Both the position numbers and the translations under genes were made by a program. DNA of 23,027 bases from a virus. A model generated the notes under the pieces. The model ran no database searches, had not been told where the DNA came from, and was given only the letters and a program-made list of their open reading frames with translations. Shown here in pieces: positions 5,791-22,971 of the stretch. Where the stretch lies: the IMG/VR virus record IMGVR_UViG_3300025890_000168, positions 1 through 23,027 of that record; one strand, 5' to 3'. Each line of letters opens with the position of its first letter. The stretch's first letter is position 1.

Positions 5791-7845
5791 TTATACGTCT
5801 TTTGTGTCAAGCCAATTTGGACCTATTTTTGCCTCTAATAATAGTGGCACATTCATACGTACTTTGTACACATCTTCTATCAGGTCCACAAGGTTATCAT
5901 TAAGATCTGTAACTATTTGTAATACCTCTTCTTCTTCATCTGGGTGTATATCAGCCACCGCTGAATCATGTACTGTGTTGATCAATACAGAGTTTAGTGG
6001 CTTTAATCTTTTGTGAAACTCATTAAGTACAGCAGGGGTAACATCACCCGTAGCGAAACCCTGTACAGGATAATTCTTTAACATAGTAAAGTGTGTGACA
6101 CTACCATTAGCTCTGCGCTCAATGTCAGGAAAAGCATACTGCCTACCACTGATGTTAGTTATCTTATTGAAGCGCATTGCTTCGTCAGCCAGGTTTTGTT
6201 GCCAAGCTGCTATACCTCTATACTTCTCATTGAAGTGCTCGTAGTAAGCCTTCTCAGCGTTGCTGCGTCCATACCCAGTAGCGCCGAAGAGTGGGGCAAA
6301 CGTATGCTCCTTTGCTGCCTGTCTAGCAGTAGGCTGACCTGCATCAGAGATAACCTTTGCAGTGTAAGCATGTACGTCAAAACCTGTCTCAACTTCTTTC
6401 ATTGCAACCTCATCTTGAGCTAAGAACGCAGCCGCTCTAAATTCAAGCTGAGCAAAGTCGGCCTCTAAAATTTTACCGCCTTCCCAACGTGACACAAATA
6501 CTTTCTTAACAGGAAATGTACCACCACGAGGCATGTTTTGCATGTTAGGATTCTTACTACTAAATCTACCTGTAGCAGTTATGTGCTGGCTAAGAGTTGC
6601 GTGAAGGTATCCGTTAGACTTAGTATGCACAGATATGCCGCTAACAAAGCTAGAAAGATAGCTAGTGATAGCATTAAGGCGCTTAACATCCAGAATAAAG
6701 CTTGCCGCATCTTCCATGTTATTGTTTCTAGCTGTTGCCACCAGTGCATCTAAGTTATCCTTTCCTGTACCAAAACCACTATGCGCTATCCACTTCTTAT
6801 TTGGTGCACTAAAGCCCAGCCCTGCCATTTGCTTTGACCCTTTCAGGCCATAACCTCTTGAGTCACAGGTAGTGCACTTGTTGGGTCTAGCGTAGCGTGT
6901 ACCATCTTTCTTTGTCTTGTACGTATGACCTGCCCCGTTACATGTAGGGCAAGTGAAAGCTGTAGTCTTAAACAGCATCTTAGAATTAGCATTTACTGCA
7001 GCTTTAAACTCAGACTTATCTTTTACAAACTCAAATATGTCAGCCCATTCTTTCTTATCATTAGGCTTACGTGAGAAGATAACCTGAGATAGCTGTTCAG
7101 GTGAGTTTAAGTTGATAGGTGTGTCACCCATAAGGTCACGTACTTTGCTCTGTAGGCGCTCTTCTATCTGAGCCTGTTCAAGCTCAAACTCTTCCTTAAC
7201 CTGCTCCAATACATCAAGGTCTACCTTTAGTCCTGACATGTACATTTCGGTGAGGGTTTTGCATGTTTGAAAGGTGACGGTTCTGACTGCATAAAGGGAT
7301 CTGGACTCAGGGGTTGCGTAGTCGGCTTCGATGCTGTGGAACAACTCACAAGTTGTGAGGATATCAGCCCGAAGATAAATGCTAAGAGAATCGAGATCCG
7401 TCTCATGGGTGTTTATTCCTTTCTTTATACACGCAGTAAGGTAGTCTTCCTTCTGCTCTGCTAGACCTCTTCTAATGGCACAGGCTGATAGGCCAATACC
7501 TTCTTTGGGCTTCTGCCCTCTGCACAATATGTACTCTGCCAGCATGGTATCATAGATGTCACCATCGTATTTAAACCCACTAGCCCACAACCACATAAGA
7601 TCGTGCTTGGCATTGTGCATAATAAGAAGTGTAGTCTTATCAAGTAACTTCTGTATCAAGGCTCTACCTTGACCGTCTGAGTCCTTATGCTCATTGTGAT
7701 CCAATGTAACAAGCATAAGCTCTTCTTTGTTGTCAGCATTTACCATGCCTACCTGCACAAGGTGGTTACCTACCTCATACGGGTCAATGAACGTCTTACC
7801 ATCACGCCATGTAATGCTGTTCTCTACGTCTAATACAAGTCTCAT
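5791..7845 (-). CDS. Family-A DNA polymerase with DnaJ-type zinc-finger insertion
   Basis: The 684-residue replicative polymerase has a 3'-5' exonuclease domain (D6-x-E8, H77-N78-x3-D82, Y157-x3-D161) and polymerase motifs A (D463-FAQLEFR470), B (R508-x3-K512-x3-F516, ending F520-G521) and C (V625-H626-D627-S628). Between them, at 299-333, lies CPTC-NGAG ... CTTC-DSRGYG, the CxxC-x-G-x-G repeat of the DnaJ central domain, with four zinc-binding cysteines (C299, C302, C324, C327). This insertion is known from phage HMO-2011 and relatives. Motif C has Ser where E. coli Pol I has the acidic residue E883. The residue equivalent to Pol I 762 is Phe. TAGGAG precedes the ATG. The helicase gene lies 8 bases upstream. 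Confidence 0.96.
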   Translation of the reverse strand: MRLVLDVENSITWRDGKTFIDPYEVGNHLVQVGMVNADNKEELMLVTLDHNEHKDSDGQGRALIQKLLDKTTLLIMHNAKHDLMWLWASGFKYDGDIYDTMLAEYILCRGQKPKEGIGLSACAIRRGLAEQKEDYLTACIKKGINTHETDLDSLSIYLRADILTTCELFHSIEADYATPESRSLYAVRTVTFQTCKTLTEMYMSGLKVDLDVLEQVKEEFELEQAQIEERLQSKVRDLMGDTPINLNSPEQLSQVIFSRKPNDKKEWADIFEFVKDKSEFKAAVNANSKMLFKTTAFTCPTCNGAGHTYKTKKDGTRYARPNKCTTCDSRGYGLKGSKQMAGLGFSAPNKKWIAHSGFGTGKDNLDALVATARNNNMEDAASFILDVKRLNAITSYLSSFVSGISVHTKSNGYLHATLSQHITATGRFSSKNPNMQNMPRGGTFPVKKVFVSRWEGGKILEADFAQLEFRAAAFLAQDEVAMKEVETGFDVHAYTAKVISDAGQPTARQAAKEHTFAPLFGATGYGRSNAEKAYYEHFNEKYRGIAAWQQNLADEAMRFNKITNISGRQYAFPDIERRANGSVTHFTMLKNYPVQGFATGDVTPAVLNEFHKRLKPLNSVLINTVHDSAVADIHPDEEEEVLQIVTDLNDNLVDLIEDVYKVRMNVPLLLEAKIGPNWLDTKDV

Positions 7846-10423: not shown

Positions 10424-11037
10424 TCTTCTATCCTATTAATAATATCTATTGCTTGTTCTACTGACATCTTAAACCATTCACCGTTTTGTTTTTTGTCGTG
10501 ACCTATGTGGGTCTTCTGAGCTTCTACATGTGCAATACTTTCTGCGACATGCCTGTCAGAAAACTTTTTCATGTAGGCATACTCATGGTTTCTATATGGC
10601 GTTGATGTATGAAACTGACCAATTCTTCTATCTTCATAGCCTGTTTCAACTATCCCAATCTTTACCCAACCTTCAAAGCAAGGTGTAGTCACGACATACA
10701 CATATCCCTCTGATGATTTTACTCTTTTACTTTCCTGAGTAAATTCACCTACTATAATCTTTGCATTTTTATTCATCTTAGCCACAACTTCTGCCCAAGT
10801 TTTAAAATATCCTGGCGTGTGGTATCCTAGCAACACAAAGGGGTGAGGGTCACGATCTTTCCTTGTACCTTTAGGTATGTAACCATCCTTATATTCAGGC
10901 TTAGCTTCTGCTACGTACATCCTTCCTTTGTTTCTTTTATTGTGTGTAGACAGCCGCTGCCTTGGCTTACCATGTAACATGTACCACCATTCGCCATCAA
11001 CAAATTCTGCATTAGCAAGGTTCAGTTTATTACTCAT
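10420..11037 (-). CDS. GIY-YIG superfamily protein of the T5orf172 / MUG113 type
   Basis: The 205-residue protein has a C-terminal domain starting near residue 112 with GYVYVVTTPCFEGWVKIGI, then RRIGQFHTSTP, an Ala-rich helix containing the E of VAESIAHVEAQ, and NGEWFKMS. The order 'Y-V-Y ... K-I-G ... R ... E ... G-E-W-F' is that of T5orf172-like GIY-YIG domains, putative nucleases. The N-terminal 110 residues are basic (GKPRQRLSTHNKRNKGR) and may bind DNA. It could be a homing-type or host-DNA-degrading nuclease; no intron is visible nearby. It overlaps primase by eight bases. Confidence 0.72.
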   Translation of the reverse strand: MSNKLNLANAEFVDGEWWYMLHGKPRQRLSTHNKRNKGRMYVAEAKPEYKDGYIPKGTRKDRDPHPFVLLGYHTPGYFKTWAEVVAKMNKNAKIIVGEFTQESKRVKSSEGYVYVVTTPCFEGWVKIGIVETGYEDRRIGQFHTSTPYRNHEYAYMKKFSDRHVAESIAHVEAQKTHIGHDKKQNGEWFKMSVEQAIDIINRIEE

Positions 11038-11827
11038 TGTTCAACATTCCTTCTAGCTTTTCCATGTCATCTTCTACTCTGTATTTAACATCGTCGTTTA
11101 GCATGTAAGCCATAGTGCGTAGCCCTGTCCATGCCTGTATCTCTGATCTGTACTTGATAGTCTTATCTATAGCATCAGGATCAAGAGCAATAACAACCCT
11201 ATCGTATTCACCTATCTTCTCCATATGCTTGTCTGTTAATTGAGTACCAAGAATAGCCATGCTAGTTATATGCGGAAACTCTTGGTATGCAACGATTGCT
11301 GACACGACATCTTCAACAATGAATAGGACAGACCCTGTACCTATCGTGTAGTAGTCAGCTTTGCCAGTGTAGCGATACCATTTAGGGTGCTGTGTATTAC
11401 CTACAGCCCTACCGATAGCGTCTACCATGCGCCCCTTGTGGTGTATCGGAAATACAACACGCTCATCTTTAACATCGTAAAGTAAATTATCTATTGCTAA
11501 GCCCCAGCGCCTTACAAACCTGTTAAACTTTAGGTGCGTAGGCATAGGCTTCACCACGTACTGTGGTATCTCCATAGTCTCTTTCTCCCTATGTCGTTTT
11601 TGCTCTGCAGTTTGTCGCATAATCATCATTATTTCTGCAGCAGTCAAATCAGTGTGGATAAAACCGCCGATAGTACACGTATTTTTGTAGCAATTATACT
11701 TTACTACACCATTGTCATTGGTTGCAGTGAACGTATTACGCCCACCACACACAGGACAGTTACCACGATGGTTCTCACCCGTAGTCAGGCATAGATCACC
11801 GACATACTTACGAATCTTCATCATCAT
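11030..11827 (-). CDS. DNA primase with zinc-binding and TOPRIM domains
   Basis: The protein (about 265 residues) has a T7-type zinc-binding domain, C24-x2-C27 (CPVCGG) and C46-x4-C51 (NCYKNTC), then a TOPRIM domain with E172 in LFIVEDVVSA and D216-x-D218 in IALDPDA. It corresponds to the N-terminal half of T7 gp4 as a stand-alone enzyme and would make RNA primers for the phage polymerase together with the helicase at 7854-9080. Three consecutive ATG codons follow AAGGGG; the last two have better spacing, so the true start may be 11824 or 11821. It overlaps the integrase end by 20 bases. Confidence 0.9.
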   Translation of the reverse strand: MMMKIRKYVGDLCLTTGENHRGNCPVCGGRNTFTATNDNGVVKYNCYKNTCTIGGFIHTDLTAAEIMMIMRQTAEQKRHREKETMEIPQYVVKPMPTHLKFNRFVRRWGLAIDNLLYDVKDERVVFPIHHKGRMVDAIGRAVGNTQHPKWYRYTGKADYYTIGTGSVLFIVEDVVSAIVAYQEFPHITSMAILGTQLTDKHMEKIGEYDRVVIALDPDAIDKTIKYRSEIQAWTGLRTMAYMLNDDVKYRVEDDMEKLEGMLNNE

Positions 11828-12716
11828 TACCCCTTGCTGCCAAAGCTCTGCTTGCACCACTGAATGTATTAACCATGTAAGGCTTCAACGATGCAGGGTT
11901 CACATGACCTGTTACTTGCATTATACCCACTAGGTCAACCCCTGCTTCCATCATCTCAGTCACAGCAGTACGGCGCAGAGACATAGCTGTAAGCTCTCTA
12001 GGTAGATTAGCTTCGTCCAGTACCTCATTGATAAGAGGGGCTATTTCATTCAACCCATAGCGCCTAACCTGGCCTCGATCCAGTGATACCTTTGGTGCAA
12101 CGTAATCTTGAAAGCCAAAATCTTTATGTTGCTCACGTAACATCTTGCACAGGTTCTGACTAATAGGCAGGTGCACATCTGCACCCCTCTTAGATTGCGT
12201 CAGATCCATGCGGCACTGATCCAGATCCAATGTATCCCATGTCAGGGTACGCATGTCACCAGTACGTTGACCCCAATCATACGCCATGTGAACGATTAAC
12301 CCAATGCTGCGCCACCGCCACTGGCTGTACGCTGTAGTGAGGAAGGCCTTTACAGATGCCCGATCCCACTTAGTCTTTGTTTTACGCTCTGTGCTAGTCT
12401 CTATGAGGCTCACAGGGTTATGTCGCATGACATCCTTGGACATACTGTACTTCCATGCCCTAGATAGCACAGACTTTGTGTAATTAGCTGTGCGGATGCC
12501 ATGCTCTTGTTCCCACTTCTCGTAGGCTCTGTTCAGCATACCTGCTGTAACATCTTCGATAGATTTACTACCGATAGATTTATTAACTCTAGCCAAATGA
12601 TACTCATAATCTTTCTGGCTGCGAGGGCTGAGCTTAGCAAAGGCAGGGCTGTGCAGGTAGTAATCAATAAGTTTACTTACCTTGTCTGTCGCCTTTGGGA
12701 TCTTTACTTTTCTCAT
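11808..12716 (-). CDS. int: Tyrosine recombinase / phage integrase
   Basis: The 302-residue protein has an N-terminal core-binding (SAM-like) domain and a C-terminal catalytic domain with R151 (QRTGDMRTLTW), K176 (QSKRGADVHLPI), R248 in box II (SLRRTAVTEM), H271 (TGHVNP) and the nucleophile Y280 (SLKPYMVNT). The box II histidine position holds Met245. The frame extends 19 codons upstream, but the ATG at 12716 has AAGGAG about nine bases ahead. It implies the phage can integrate, though no attachment site was identified. Location inside the replication operon, next to primase, is unlike classical temperate phages but occurs in marine podoviruses. Confidence 0.92.
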   Translation of the reverse strand: MRKVKIPKATDKVSKLIDYYLHSPAFAKLSPRSQKDYEYHLARVNKSIGSKSIEDVTAGMLNRAYEKWEQEHGIRTANYTKSVLSRAWKYSMSKDVMRHNPVSLIETSTERKTKTKWDRASVKAFLTTAYSQWRWRSIGLIVHMAYDWGQRTGDMRTLTWDTLDLDQCRMDLTQSKRGADVHLPISQNLCKMLREQHKDFGFQDYVAPKVSLDRGQVRRYGLNEIAPLINEVLDEANLPRELTAMSLRRTAVTEMMEAGVDLVGIMQVTGHVNPASLKPYMVNTFSGASRALAARGNDDEDS

Positions 12717-12807
12717 CGTCCTTGTCTCCTTTTTTACTGGGGGGCATGTTGCCCGCCCAATGTGATGCATCATCGTGAGGGTTATCGCAATCCTTTTCGC
12801 TTTGCAC
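12673..12807 (-). CDS. Possible small hydrophilic protein overlapping the integrase start
   Basis: A 44-codon frame starts at a GTG with GAGGAG seven bases upstream. Its product is very polar: QSEKDCDNPHDDASHWAGN followed by a Lys/Asp-rich tail ending DRQGK. It overlaps the end of the membrane-protein gene upstream (26 bases) and the first 44 bases of integrase in another frame. The good ribosome binding site argues for translation; the overlaps and low-complexity tail argue for caution. Translation could couple the membrane gene to integrase. Confidence 0.45.
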   Translation of the reverse strand: MQSEKDCDNPHDDASHWAGNMPPSKKGDKDDEKSKDPKGDRQGK

Positions 12808-12910
12808 AGCTTAGCTCCTCATGGCTAGTAAACATCAAAGCAACAAAGCCAATTATGTAAGCAGCACAGATTAATAACACGATGCTATACTTTAAAATAA
12901 AGGAAACCAT
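12782..12910 (-). CDS. Small single-pass membrane protein, 42 residues
   Basis: The frame encodes MVSFILKYSIVLLICAAYI followed by more hydrophobic residues to about 26, then the polar tail TSHEELSCAKRKGLR. This is one transmembrane helix with a basic end. AAGGTGAT precedes the ATG. It fills the gap upstream of integrase and slightly overlaps the 67-residue gene. Function unknown; the size is compatible with a small inner-membrane modulator of the host. Confidence 0.65.
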   Translation of the reverse strand: MVSFILKYSIVLLICAAYIIGFVALMFTSHEELSCAKRKGLR

Positions 12911-13095
12911 ACATCACCTTTCTTATCTAACCCAGTTACGTGTGCTAGATCTGTGCGTAGGAAATCAGCGCGCTTAAAGTCACCTTCCCACTCTAGATCA
13001 TCTATCTGCCTCTTCAAAGAATACATAAGCTTCCTCACTGATACGCAGTTTCGCGGGGTATATACTTCTCCACCCTTGCTTTGACGTTTTCCCAT
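12892..13095 (-). CDS. Hypothetical 67-residue protein
   Basis: Not recognised by name. The C-terminal 44 residues (MYSLKRQIDDLEWEGDFKRA onward, ending GDVWFPLF) look like a folded helical unit. The ATG at 13095 gives a 61-base overlap with the gene upstream. An internal ATG at 13026, preceded by AGGAAG, would remove that overlap and give a 44-residue protein; both starts are possible. It lies in the run of short genes ahead of integrase. Confidence 0.6.
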   Translation of the reverse strand: MGKRQSKGGEVYTPRNCVSVRKLMYSLKRQIDDLEWEGDFKRADFLRTDLAHVTGLDKKGDVWFPLF

Positions 13096-21184: not shown

Positions 21185-21346
21185 ATGGCTACACCAACTA
21201 ACAAAAAACTCTATGCGGTTGTAAAGGCGGCAGCTAAAAAGAAATTTAAAAAATGGCCTAGCGCTTATGCATCAGCCTGGTTAGTTAAGGAATATAAGCG
21301 TAGGGGAGGCAAATATAGTGGCTCAAGCAAAAACAAAGTCGCGTAA
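21185..21346 (+). CDS. Small basic protein, DUF5872-like
   Basis: The 53-residue protein has 'KLYAVVKAAAKKKFKKWPSA' then YASAWLVKEYKRRGGKY, a motif seen in many marine phage proteins and likely the DUF5872 domain. It is helical and strongly basic. GGGA lies about ten bases ahead of the ATG. It overlaps the next gene by 29 bases. Confidence 0.68.
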   Translation: MATPTNKKLYAVVKAAAKKKFKKWPSAYASAWLVKEYKRRGGKYSGSSKNKVA

Positions 21347-21602
21347 GACAGGCCACCTGATACAAAGCCGTAGAGGTTATTCTAAGGGTGGCTTAGGTAA
21401 GTGGTTCAGTGAAGAGTGGACAGACGTAAAGACAGGCAAAGAATGTGGTCGCTCAGGTAGTAAAGACTCAGGTAGACCTTATCCTGCATGTAGACCTAAA
21501 GCTGTAGCTAGTAAGATTAGTAAGAAAGAGGCCGCTAAGAAAACTGGCCCCAAGAAAGTAAAGTGGTCAACGACTGCATCAGGTAGAAAGAGGAATGCGT
21601 AA
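21318..21602 (+). CDS. Basic protein with a KWF-x-E-x-W motif
   Basis: The 94-residue protein starts at GTG 21318 with a strong GGGGAGG site eight bases upstream. It contains GLGKWFSEEWTDVKTGKECG and SGRPYPACRPK, a cysteine-containing pattern common in marine phage proteins of the DUF5872/DUF6321 group, and a Lys-rich tail. Function unknown; probably DNA- or virion-associated. Its TAA overlaps the next ATG. Confidence 0.68.
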   Translation: MAQAKTKSRKTGHLIQSRRGYSKGGLGKWFSEEWTDVKTGKECGRSGSKDSGRPYPACRPKAVASKISKKEAAKKTGPKKVKWSTTASGRKRNA

Positions 21603-21997
21603 TGGCTGATAAAAGACCCCCTAAAATAGGAGAGTTTCAAGAGCGCTACACTGGAAAAAAGACACCTAAGTGGTTACTTGATGCATATATACAAGGTAGT
21701 AAAAGCTATAATGCAAAAGAATTAAAGCATAAAATAATAGGTTATGCAGAGAAAAATAACCTAAAATACCCCCAAGTTGTTGCACAAGCCAGAGGTGAAG
21801 CAAATCAGATTAAGCACTACTTGAAAAAGACTGTGACGCCTAGTGGTAAAAATAAAGCAAGAAAACCTAAAGTATCTGGCGGCGGCGGTATGTTTAAAAT
21901 AGGTGATACAGCAAGCTCTATAAATAGAGGAACCCTATCTGTAGCTAAAAAACGTCAGCTGAATAAGGGTGGATTATTGAAAAAGGCTAAAAAATAA
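21602..21997 (+). CDS. Hypothetical basic protein, 131 residues
   Basis: Not recognised. It has 'FQERYTGKKTPKWLLDAYIQ', a Lys-rich helical middle, a flexible SGKNKARKPKVSGGGG linker and a C-terminal Lys/Gly tail. TAATG overlaps join it to both neighbours. The composition suggests nucleic acid binding. Confidence 0.68.
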   Translation: MADKRPPKIGEFQERYTGKKTPKWLLDAYIQGSKSYNAKELKHKIIGYAEKNNLKYPQVVAQARGEANQIKHYLKKTVTPSGKNKARKPKVSGGGGMFKIGDTASSINRGTLSVAKKRQLNKGGLLKKAKK

Positions 21998-22083
21998 TGG
22001 CAAAAAAGATGTGTCCTAAGTGTAAAGGAAAAGGGTGCTCTCATTGTGGGGGTACAGGTTATCATAAAAAAGGAAAGAAGTGA
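21997..22083 (+). CDS. 28-residue DnaJ-type zinc-knuckle microprotein
   Basis: A 28-codon frame fills the space between two genes, with a TAATG start and a TGATG end overlap. The product MAKKMCPKCKGKGCSHCGGT, then GYHKKGKK, has C6-x2-C9-x-G-x-G and C14-x2-C17-x-G-x-G, the paired CxxCxGxG repeats of the DnaJ zinc finger in the smallest possible form. Exact coupling on both sides and the conserved-looking motif make a chance frame unlikely. Confidence 0.8.
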   Translation: MAKKMCPKCKGKGCSHCGGTGYHKKGKK

Positions 22084-22379
22084 TGTTAAATAAGAAGCAA
22101 CAAAAGAAGATAGGTATTAAAGGTAAAACTAAACAGTATGATGTTGGGTATAGGGATACACCTAATTCTGAGGCTGTATTAACTGCTAAGGAAAAGAAAA
22201 AAGCAAAGGCGGCATTGAATGACATTTCTAACGCTTTGAAGATGGGTGCTGGCGGTGACGTTAAAAAGAAAAAAGGTATGGCATACGGTGGGATGATGAA
22301 AAAAGGCTTCAAGCATGGTGGCTTAGCTTGTGGTGCAGACGTTCCAGCAAAGAATCCTGTTAAGCGTGGTAAGTCTTAA
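22083..22379 (+). CDS. Lys/Gly-rich protein, 98 residues
   Basis: The protein starts MLNKKQQKKIGIKGKTKQYD and ends with a glycine-rich segment, KGMAYGGMMKKGFKHGGLAC and NPVKRGKS. Such 'GGM-KKG-KHGG-CG' tails are frequent in small cyanophage and pelagiphage proteins of unknown function. The ATG at 22083 is chosen over a GTG one codon upstream because of the TGATG overlap. Confidence 0.7.
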   Translation: MLNKKQQKKIGIKGKTKQYDVGYRDTPNSEAVLTAKEKKKAKAALNDISNALKMGAGGDVKKKKGMAYGGMMKKGFKHGGLACGADVPAKNPVKRGKS

Positions 22380-22612
22380 TGGCTAAGTATTACGATAAGT
22401 ATAAGAAGCAGCTTAATGCTGCAGGTTACACTATTGATGGTGATGGCATGGTTTGGGATGCTAATGGCAACCAAGCTGCAGGTGAGGATCGTTTTGGTAA
22501 CGTACAGAGTAAAGACCCTAACGTTACTCAGATCTGTAAGGATGCAGAGTCATCAGGTATATTTAATAAAGTGAAGAAGGCTATTAAGCCAAAAGCTAAG
22601 AAAGCAACCTAA
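22379..22612 (+). CDS. Hypothetical 77-residue protein
   Basis: Not recognised. It begins MAKYYDKYKKQLNAAGYTID, has a Gly/Asn-rich turn (DGDGMVWDANGNQAAGEDRF) and a Lys-rich end. TAATG overlaps link it to the genes on both sides. Confidence 0.68.
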   Translation: MAKYYDKYKKQLNAAGYTIDGDGMVWDANGNQAAGEDRFGNVQSKDPNVTQICKDAESSGIFNKVKKAIKPKAKKAT

Positions 22613-22971
22613 TGTCTTTTGTGAATCAAGGTAAGCCAGCACGTATTAAGTCTGTTTATGGTCACAATACAGGTACGACTACAGAGAATGTTTATACGTG
22701 TCCTGCAAACTGTACTGCTGAGATTACCTTTATTCATGTAGTTAATGGTGGTGGATCTACTAACACAGTAGAAGTAGGGTGGTACGTAGCTGCAGATACT
22801 TATGTTTCTAAATTTTTAAGTGCTAAATCTATAGGGAGCGGTGATTACATAAGCTTCAACCAAATAGATTTAGTACTTCAACCTAACGATCAAATAAGAG
22901 TTACCCCTACAGGTGCTGGGCATATAGATACGATATTAACAGTTACAGAAACCTTTGTGCCTGTAGGGTAA
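22612..22971 (+). CDS. Beta-rich protein, candidate virion protein
   Basis: The 119-residue protein is rich in beta strands: TTTENVYTCPANCTAEITFI, then TNTVEVGWYVA, YISFNQIDLVLQPNDQIRV and ILTVTETFVPVG. This strand pattern, with 'L-x-P-N-D-x-I-R-V-T' before a glycine turn, is that of small jelly-roll or decoration-like phage proteins found near structural genes. It ends with a plain stop and no gene is seen in the remaining 56 bases. The virion role is an inference. Confidence 0.65.
   Translation: MSFVNQGKPARIKSVYGHNTGTTTENVYTCPANCTAEITFIHVVNGGGSTNTVEVGWYVAADTYVSKFLSAKSIGSGDYISFNQIDLVLQPNDQIRVTPTGAGHIDTILTVTETFVPVG

Follow-up and report, generated by a model that had tools for sequence, protein, structure and literature searches.

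A small phage module, probably zinc-binding, standing alone in a 28-residue open reading frame

Closest described relatives

The DNA analysed here (the window, a stretch of 23,027 nucleotides from a virus) belongs near the Roseobacter phages CRP-2 and CRP-603, and both encode the module with which this report is concerned. The first 23 residues (MAKKMCPKCKGKGCSHCGGTGYH) of the hypothetical proteins CRP-603 gp72 (UAW59239.1) and CRP-2 gp68 (QBQ72544.1) are identical to those of a 28-residue ORF in the window (Table 1), and the gene slot and the Lys/Gly-rich type of tail are shared as well; in these two phages, however, module and tail form one protein of 89-104 aa, whereas the window has them as two ORFs. 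The same module occurs in PHROG 1418, which comprises proteins of about 240 aa from T4-like cyanophages, such as Syn9 gp186 (for which we found no paper). By hmmscan the 28-aa peptide matches this profile with E=2.3e-6, but at positions 51-73 of 313 alone, so that the window ORF has the module in common with these proteins and not the whole chain. CXXCXGXG repeats like those of the knuckle are also found in the DnaJ central domain (PF00684) and in the DnaJ-type polymerase finger, which one study reports for all HMO-2011-type phages (PMC9038755); passages in the papers on HMO-2011 and RCA phages describe this finger and give no account of the knuckle module (PMC9038755, PMC6918029). The knuckle differs from PF00684 and from the finger in its abutting repeats, in its xHC and GYH signatures and in the lack of co-occurrence with the finger across the phages described below. 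A Pfam search with the 28-aa ORF gave no match to PF00684 up to E=1 and returned just DUF5351, below cut-off; the knuckle likewise drew below-cut-off matches alone from NCBIfam.

An AF2 model of the 31-aa form of the module found in some relatives (mean pLDDT 79.7) places two short strands around the cysteine loop. The fused 90-aa protein was modelled with a mean pLDDT of 52.7, its tail mostly unstructured save two short helices, and for these reasons it was left out of the fold search. The top Foldseek targets were anti-TRAP, bacterial PheRS alpha and PilB, all non-significant (E at least 1.3), and the structural matches, with VIA Z at most 2.8, are no evidence of kinship. Anti-TRAP (RtpA, 53 aa, PDB 2zp9/2bx9), the first of them (0.8 A over 21 columns, E=1.3, VIA Z 2.8, non-significant), is likewise small and stand-alone and has two CxxC pairs; unlike in the knuckle, these pairs lie more than 4 residues apart, and the NCBIfam model NF058604 gave 11.4 bits against a cut-off of 65. 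In bacterial PheRS alpha (2rhq) the cysteine loop CFKCKGKGCNVCKHTGW matched the knuckle profile with E=0.0055, but it is a loop in a 294-aa enzyme chain, and the likeness is likely one of local shape and not of membership. Judging from the cysteine pattern and the AF2 model, the four cysteines probably bind one zinc; the model fits a small one-zinc knuckle, without amounting to proof.

Table 1. Features of the window discussed in the text
Feature	Coordinates	Strand	Remarks
DNA polymerase (family A), DnaJ-type finger	5791..7845	-	Pfam DNA_pol_A E=2.7e-49; weak DnaJ_CXXCXGXG match below cut-off
131-aa basic protein, no assigned function	21602..21997	+	Full-length 97-98% identity in 14/15 viral contigs
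28-aa stand-alone ORF, putative zinc knuckle, MAKKMCPKCKGKGCSHCGGTGYHKKGKK	21997..22083	+	ATG start; in relatives, same residues as N-terminal domain of proteins of 82-154 aa
Core module CPKCKGKGCSHCGGTGYH, C-x2-C-x4-C-x2-C-x5-H	22012..22065	+	80 distinct viral peptides; pN/pS 0.04
98-aa Lys/Gly-rich tail protein (99 aa from GTG 22080)	22083..22379	+	C-terminal part of relatives' knuckle-fused protein
77-aa gene downstream of the tail ORF, a conserved slot flank	22379..22612	+	
119-aa protein, slot anchor kept in distant relatives	22612..22971	+	43 loci; also in L079, L226, L277

The 28-residue frame and its conservation

The preliminary description had proposed an ORF of 28 residues at 21997-22083; both position and length proved exact, and the ORF starts with ATG. 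It was also right that the frame is too short for standard gene calling: gene callers usually stop at a lower limit of 90 nt, and this ORF has 87 nt. Its start is shared with the stop of the upstream gene (TAATG) and its own stop with the next start (TGATG), so the reported coupling to both neighbours stands; such stop/start overlaps are, however, common to all five junctions (21602, 21997, 22083, 22379 and 22612), and the coupling therefore reflects the style of the operon and is not particular to the 28-aa ORF.

Relatives were gathered by degenerate DNA patterns and by neighbour genes, the upstream gene yielding 15 viral contigs and the gene at 22612 yielding 43 (several contigs are in both lists). 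The module is nearly restricted to viral contigs: CPxCxGxGCxHCxGxG was found in at least 120 of them, while 84,980 species genomes of prokaryotes gave 8 matching stretches, and with GYH added (CPxCxGxGCxHCxGxGYH) there were still at least 120 viral contigs and no match in the same 84,980 genomes. The prokaryote matches to the shorter pattern lie in eight MAG contigs (L301-L308), 7 of them labelled Planctomycetota, and are without the GYH end. As a control, the pattern written backward was found in 0 of 17 records versus 9 of 17 for the real one. The peptide recurs across many viral contigs while its DNA differs at silent sites, and this, together with the clean control, argues that the ORF is not a product of chance; it is real, and in it a small module, probably a zinc binder, stands on its own. 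While the histidine before the fourth cysteine was fixed by the search pattern, the tyrosine and histidine after the last glycine were not, and these are present in 76/80 and 79/80 distinct peptides, respectively. In the 28-aa peptide the four cysteines, the glycines, xHC and GYH all stand at the fixed spacing of the module.

Conservation acts at the protein level. Among 11 distinct DNAs (the window plus loci found through other genes only), the 18-codon core gave pS 0.30, pN 0.013 and pN/pS 0.043, and against 8 of the 10 other DNAs the window has no nonsynonymous change in the core. A second estimate of 0.054, from sequences selected by pattern, was set aside because the pattern itself fixes residues and so biases the ratio. 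Compared among themselves, the stand-alone copies yielded pS of 0.27-0.55 and pN of 0.02-0.05. The knuckle is under strong purifying selection. Loss of the cysteines, or frameshifts and stops at this spot in related phages, had been named as what would count against the microprotein. Every copy seen keeps its cysteines (very divergent modules could escape the search), but the frame usually continues into the tail, and some relatives that are 98% similar have no module. A tBLASTn search of annotated phages with the 28 residues, proposed earlier as a check, returned nothing, though CRP-603 and CRP-2 share its first 23 residues; a further tblastn alignment covered just residues 42-89 of the knuckle protein of CRP-603 itself. 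Since this protein was aligned without its knuckle, the null result is apparently due to masking of the knuckle by the low-complexity filter.

Fused, split and module-less forms

Marine phages usually carry the module inside larger, mostly uncharacterised late proteins. Its carriers span 28 to 1460 aa and include gp186 of the T4-like cyanophage Syn9 and proteins with an endolysin-like part; placement is mostly N-terminal, sometimes internal or C-terminal. In contigs found via neighbour genes the module, where present, is always part of a larger ORF. The common fused form (82-102 aa) consists of MAKKxCPKCKGKGCSHCGGTGYHK followed by MNAGMAALKKEAPEVAKKMGY...HGGLACGA...VKRGK, the fused ORF reaches 154 aa in L023 and L033, and in L051 and L052 the module lies inside a 161-aa protein. 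Between knuckle and tail the 154-aa form has the segment that opens the next ORF of the window (KQYDVGYRDTPNSEAVLTA...). Residues 2-98 of that ORF (22083-22379) are 67-69% identical to the fused 154-aa ORF of L023/L033 (loci L180, L181), and its protein is 64-68% identical to ORFs of L182, L184 and L185, in which segment and tail are present and the knuckle is absent. When the window is aligned with its relatives at the DNA level, knuckle and tail are seen to be separate in the window and the linker replaced.

Other close relatives lack the module altogether. L005, L008, L009 and L014-L016 have an upstream gene that is 98% identical and no knuckle; in the first three the slot is filled by a different 60-aa gene, and several of the viral contigs with the 131-aa gene have a different gene next to it. 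The slot after the 131-aa gene is a hypervariable small-gene cassette site, the 60-aa MAKGVKHYFKDGTEHKGGMHKMPNGEVHSGKTHG protein being one example.

Stand-alone copies make up 4 of the 92 distinct proteins in the CPKCKGKGCxHCG subgroup: that of the window (28 aa) and those of three diverged phages (L079, L226 and L277; 31 aa). The latter occupy the same slot, after a 76-98 aa MKKPQKSLKNW protein and before small genes that are followed by the same 119-aa gene, and their presence in three diverged phages indicates that the split form recurs. The gene after the 31-aa knuckle is the tail alone in L226 (MDKKPMNEGMKALKKAAPAVAKKMGYKYGG...), and in L079 it is again a separate tail piece, which ends like its fused counterpart in L110. 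Separation or fusion thus took place more than once. The exact split of the window was found in that contig alone among those seen. Its two ORFs differ in frame and adjoin an A6 run at 22066-22071, and a one-base indel, whether real or an assembly error, could therefore cause the separation here. What is chiefly in doubt is whether the separation seen in this one contig is stable in the phage or of recent or technical origin.

Two further observations concern the same genes. Members of the tail family contain cysteine-rich inserts in L055 (3481-3702; ACSDCPSPAKCAKEGC) and L039 (566-808; GCPKCGGDKSKCSCG), as if different metal modules were exchanged within it. Upstream in the window, the overlapping ORFs 21185-21346 and 21318-21602 match positions 1-51 and 38-104 of the Pfam profile DUF5872, the second just under cut-off; they are another possible split pair, and module separation may therefore be common in this operon.

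The polymerase finger and other readings of the module

The preliminary description saw in the peptide the same paired CxxC motif as in the polymerase insertion and suggested that it might share or compete for a ligand of the finger. Knuckle and finger do have two CxxC pairs each, in a Gly-rich context and in the same genome. The finger CPTCNGAGHTYKTKKDGTRYARPNKCTTC, however, reads CPTCNGAG-(17 aa)-CTTCDSRG, with 21 residues between the pairs versus 4 in the knuckle; its second repeat is without the first Gly of CXXCXGXG, xHC and GYH are missing, and the flanking residues are unlike. The motif is thus not the same, and a separate ORF with a spacing of 4 instead of about 21 does not belong among the polymerase fingers. 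Furthermore, the module occurs independently of the polymerase. In G001 and G003 the polymerase is 98% identical to that of the window and the finger letter-identical, yet there is no knuckle anywhere in either record (both possibly fragments, with the slot present and other genes in it); nor is there one in the records of G010 and G011, whose finger polymerases are more distant (68%). Syn9, on the other hand (G014, a complete cyanophage of 177.3 kb), has the knuckle and no match to the polymerase of the window. Largely for this lack of co-occurrence we rejected the idea of a peptide that binds the ligand of the finger, which we regard as very improbable. In G004, the contig of L033, the polymerase match (11023-13084) falls into several overlapping pieces with stops, where relatives are intact; this gene is possibly unusual or disrupted.

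A net charge of +9 in 28 residues, with small basic neighbours upstream of terminase, would suit a nucleocapsid-like role, in which the zinc-knuckle peptide would bind the DNA or RNA of the phage as it is packaged. At the variable positions of the knuckle, however, charge correlates with that of the protein carrying it (Spearman 0.89, n=99, uncorrected for relatedness), and acidic versions, e.g. CPKCEGEGCDHCDGKGYH, are found in acidic proteins. Positive charge is therefore not what the module conserves. This argues against a nucleic-acid function of the module itself that depends on charge, and makes the role improbable in our view. There is a real if minor chance that the ORF is instead a remnant of gene fission, left from the 5' part of a once fused gene, its frame lost or interrupted by a contig indel, and functionless alone. 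The fused form is far commoner, the different frames near the A6 run would fit such an origin, and the slot is a recombination hot spot. Against this, the residues of the module are all intact, with silent differences only relative to 8 of 10 fused homologs, and the TAATG and TGATG junctions are clean; the 31-aa copies of L079, L226 and L277 stand alone before other downstream genes, with protein-level conservation of their own, and the window peptide has a Lys-rich C-terminal ending like theirs (KKGKK).

We favour, with moderate confidence, the reading that the ORF encodes a free-standing, mobile, phage-specific knuckle module, likely with a docking or structural role beside the tail protein in late complexes. 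Its four cysteines are predicted to bind one zinc and to form a rigid turn, with a short strand on either side. Most relatives have the module as a domain within small, Lys/Gly-rich late proteins, whose genes lie upstream of those for terminase; the window phage has module and tail as two overlapping, coupled ORFs, and the knuckle peptide most likely works next to the tail protein, for docking or as a structural part, in late-stage virion or packaging complexes. Here we infer that the 28-aa product is translated, that it associates with the tail protein and that it functions in assembly. Gene position makes a virion or assembly role plausible: the knuckle gene lies upstream of the terminase small subunit, and another knuckle protein is encoded directly upstream of presumed scaffold and coat genes (called by position, as in CRP-3). 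Because AF2 predicts the tail to be largely disordered, a specific contact between knuckle and tail is speculative. The earlier suggestion of a stand-alone virion or assembly factor is thus borne out in part. The 31-aa copies show that the module can stand alone, but most relatives have it as one domain within a larger protein, and the role, although plausible by position, is still a predicted one.

It is also conceivable, if unlikely, that the knuckle is a phage-specific docking tag, which the window phage expresses alone as a trans-acting adaptor or competitor. If so, the tag would bind one common partner, either a factor of the host or a conserved component of phage assembly, and its carriers in marine podo- and myophages would be late proteins with no relation to each other, ranging from peptides of 28 aa to lytic proteins of the SleB type. 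The finding describes a tiny, probably zinc-binding module that occurs almost exclusively in viral contigs, is shuffled between numerous late proteins of phages and is without a Pfam family here. Masking in tblastn and short length in gene calling apparently hide it, and such microproteins may be under-reported. Since fused, split and module-less versions exist in nearly identical phages, the role of the module is directly testable, and these forms illustrate how very small genes are put together and split up in phages.
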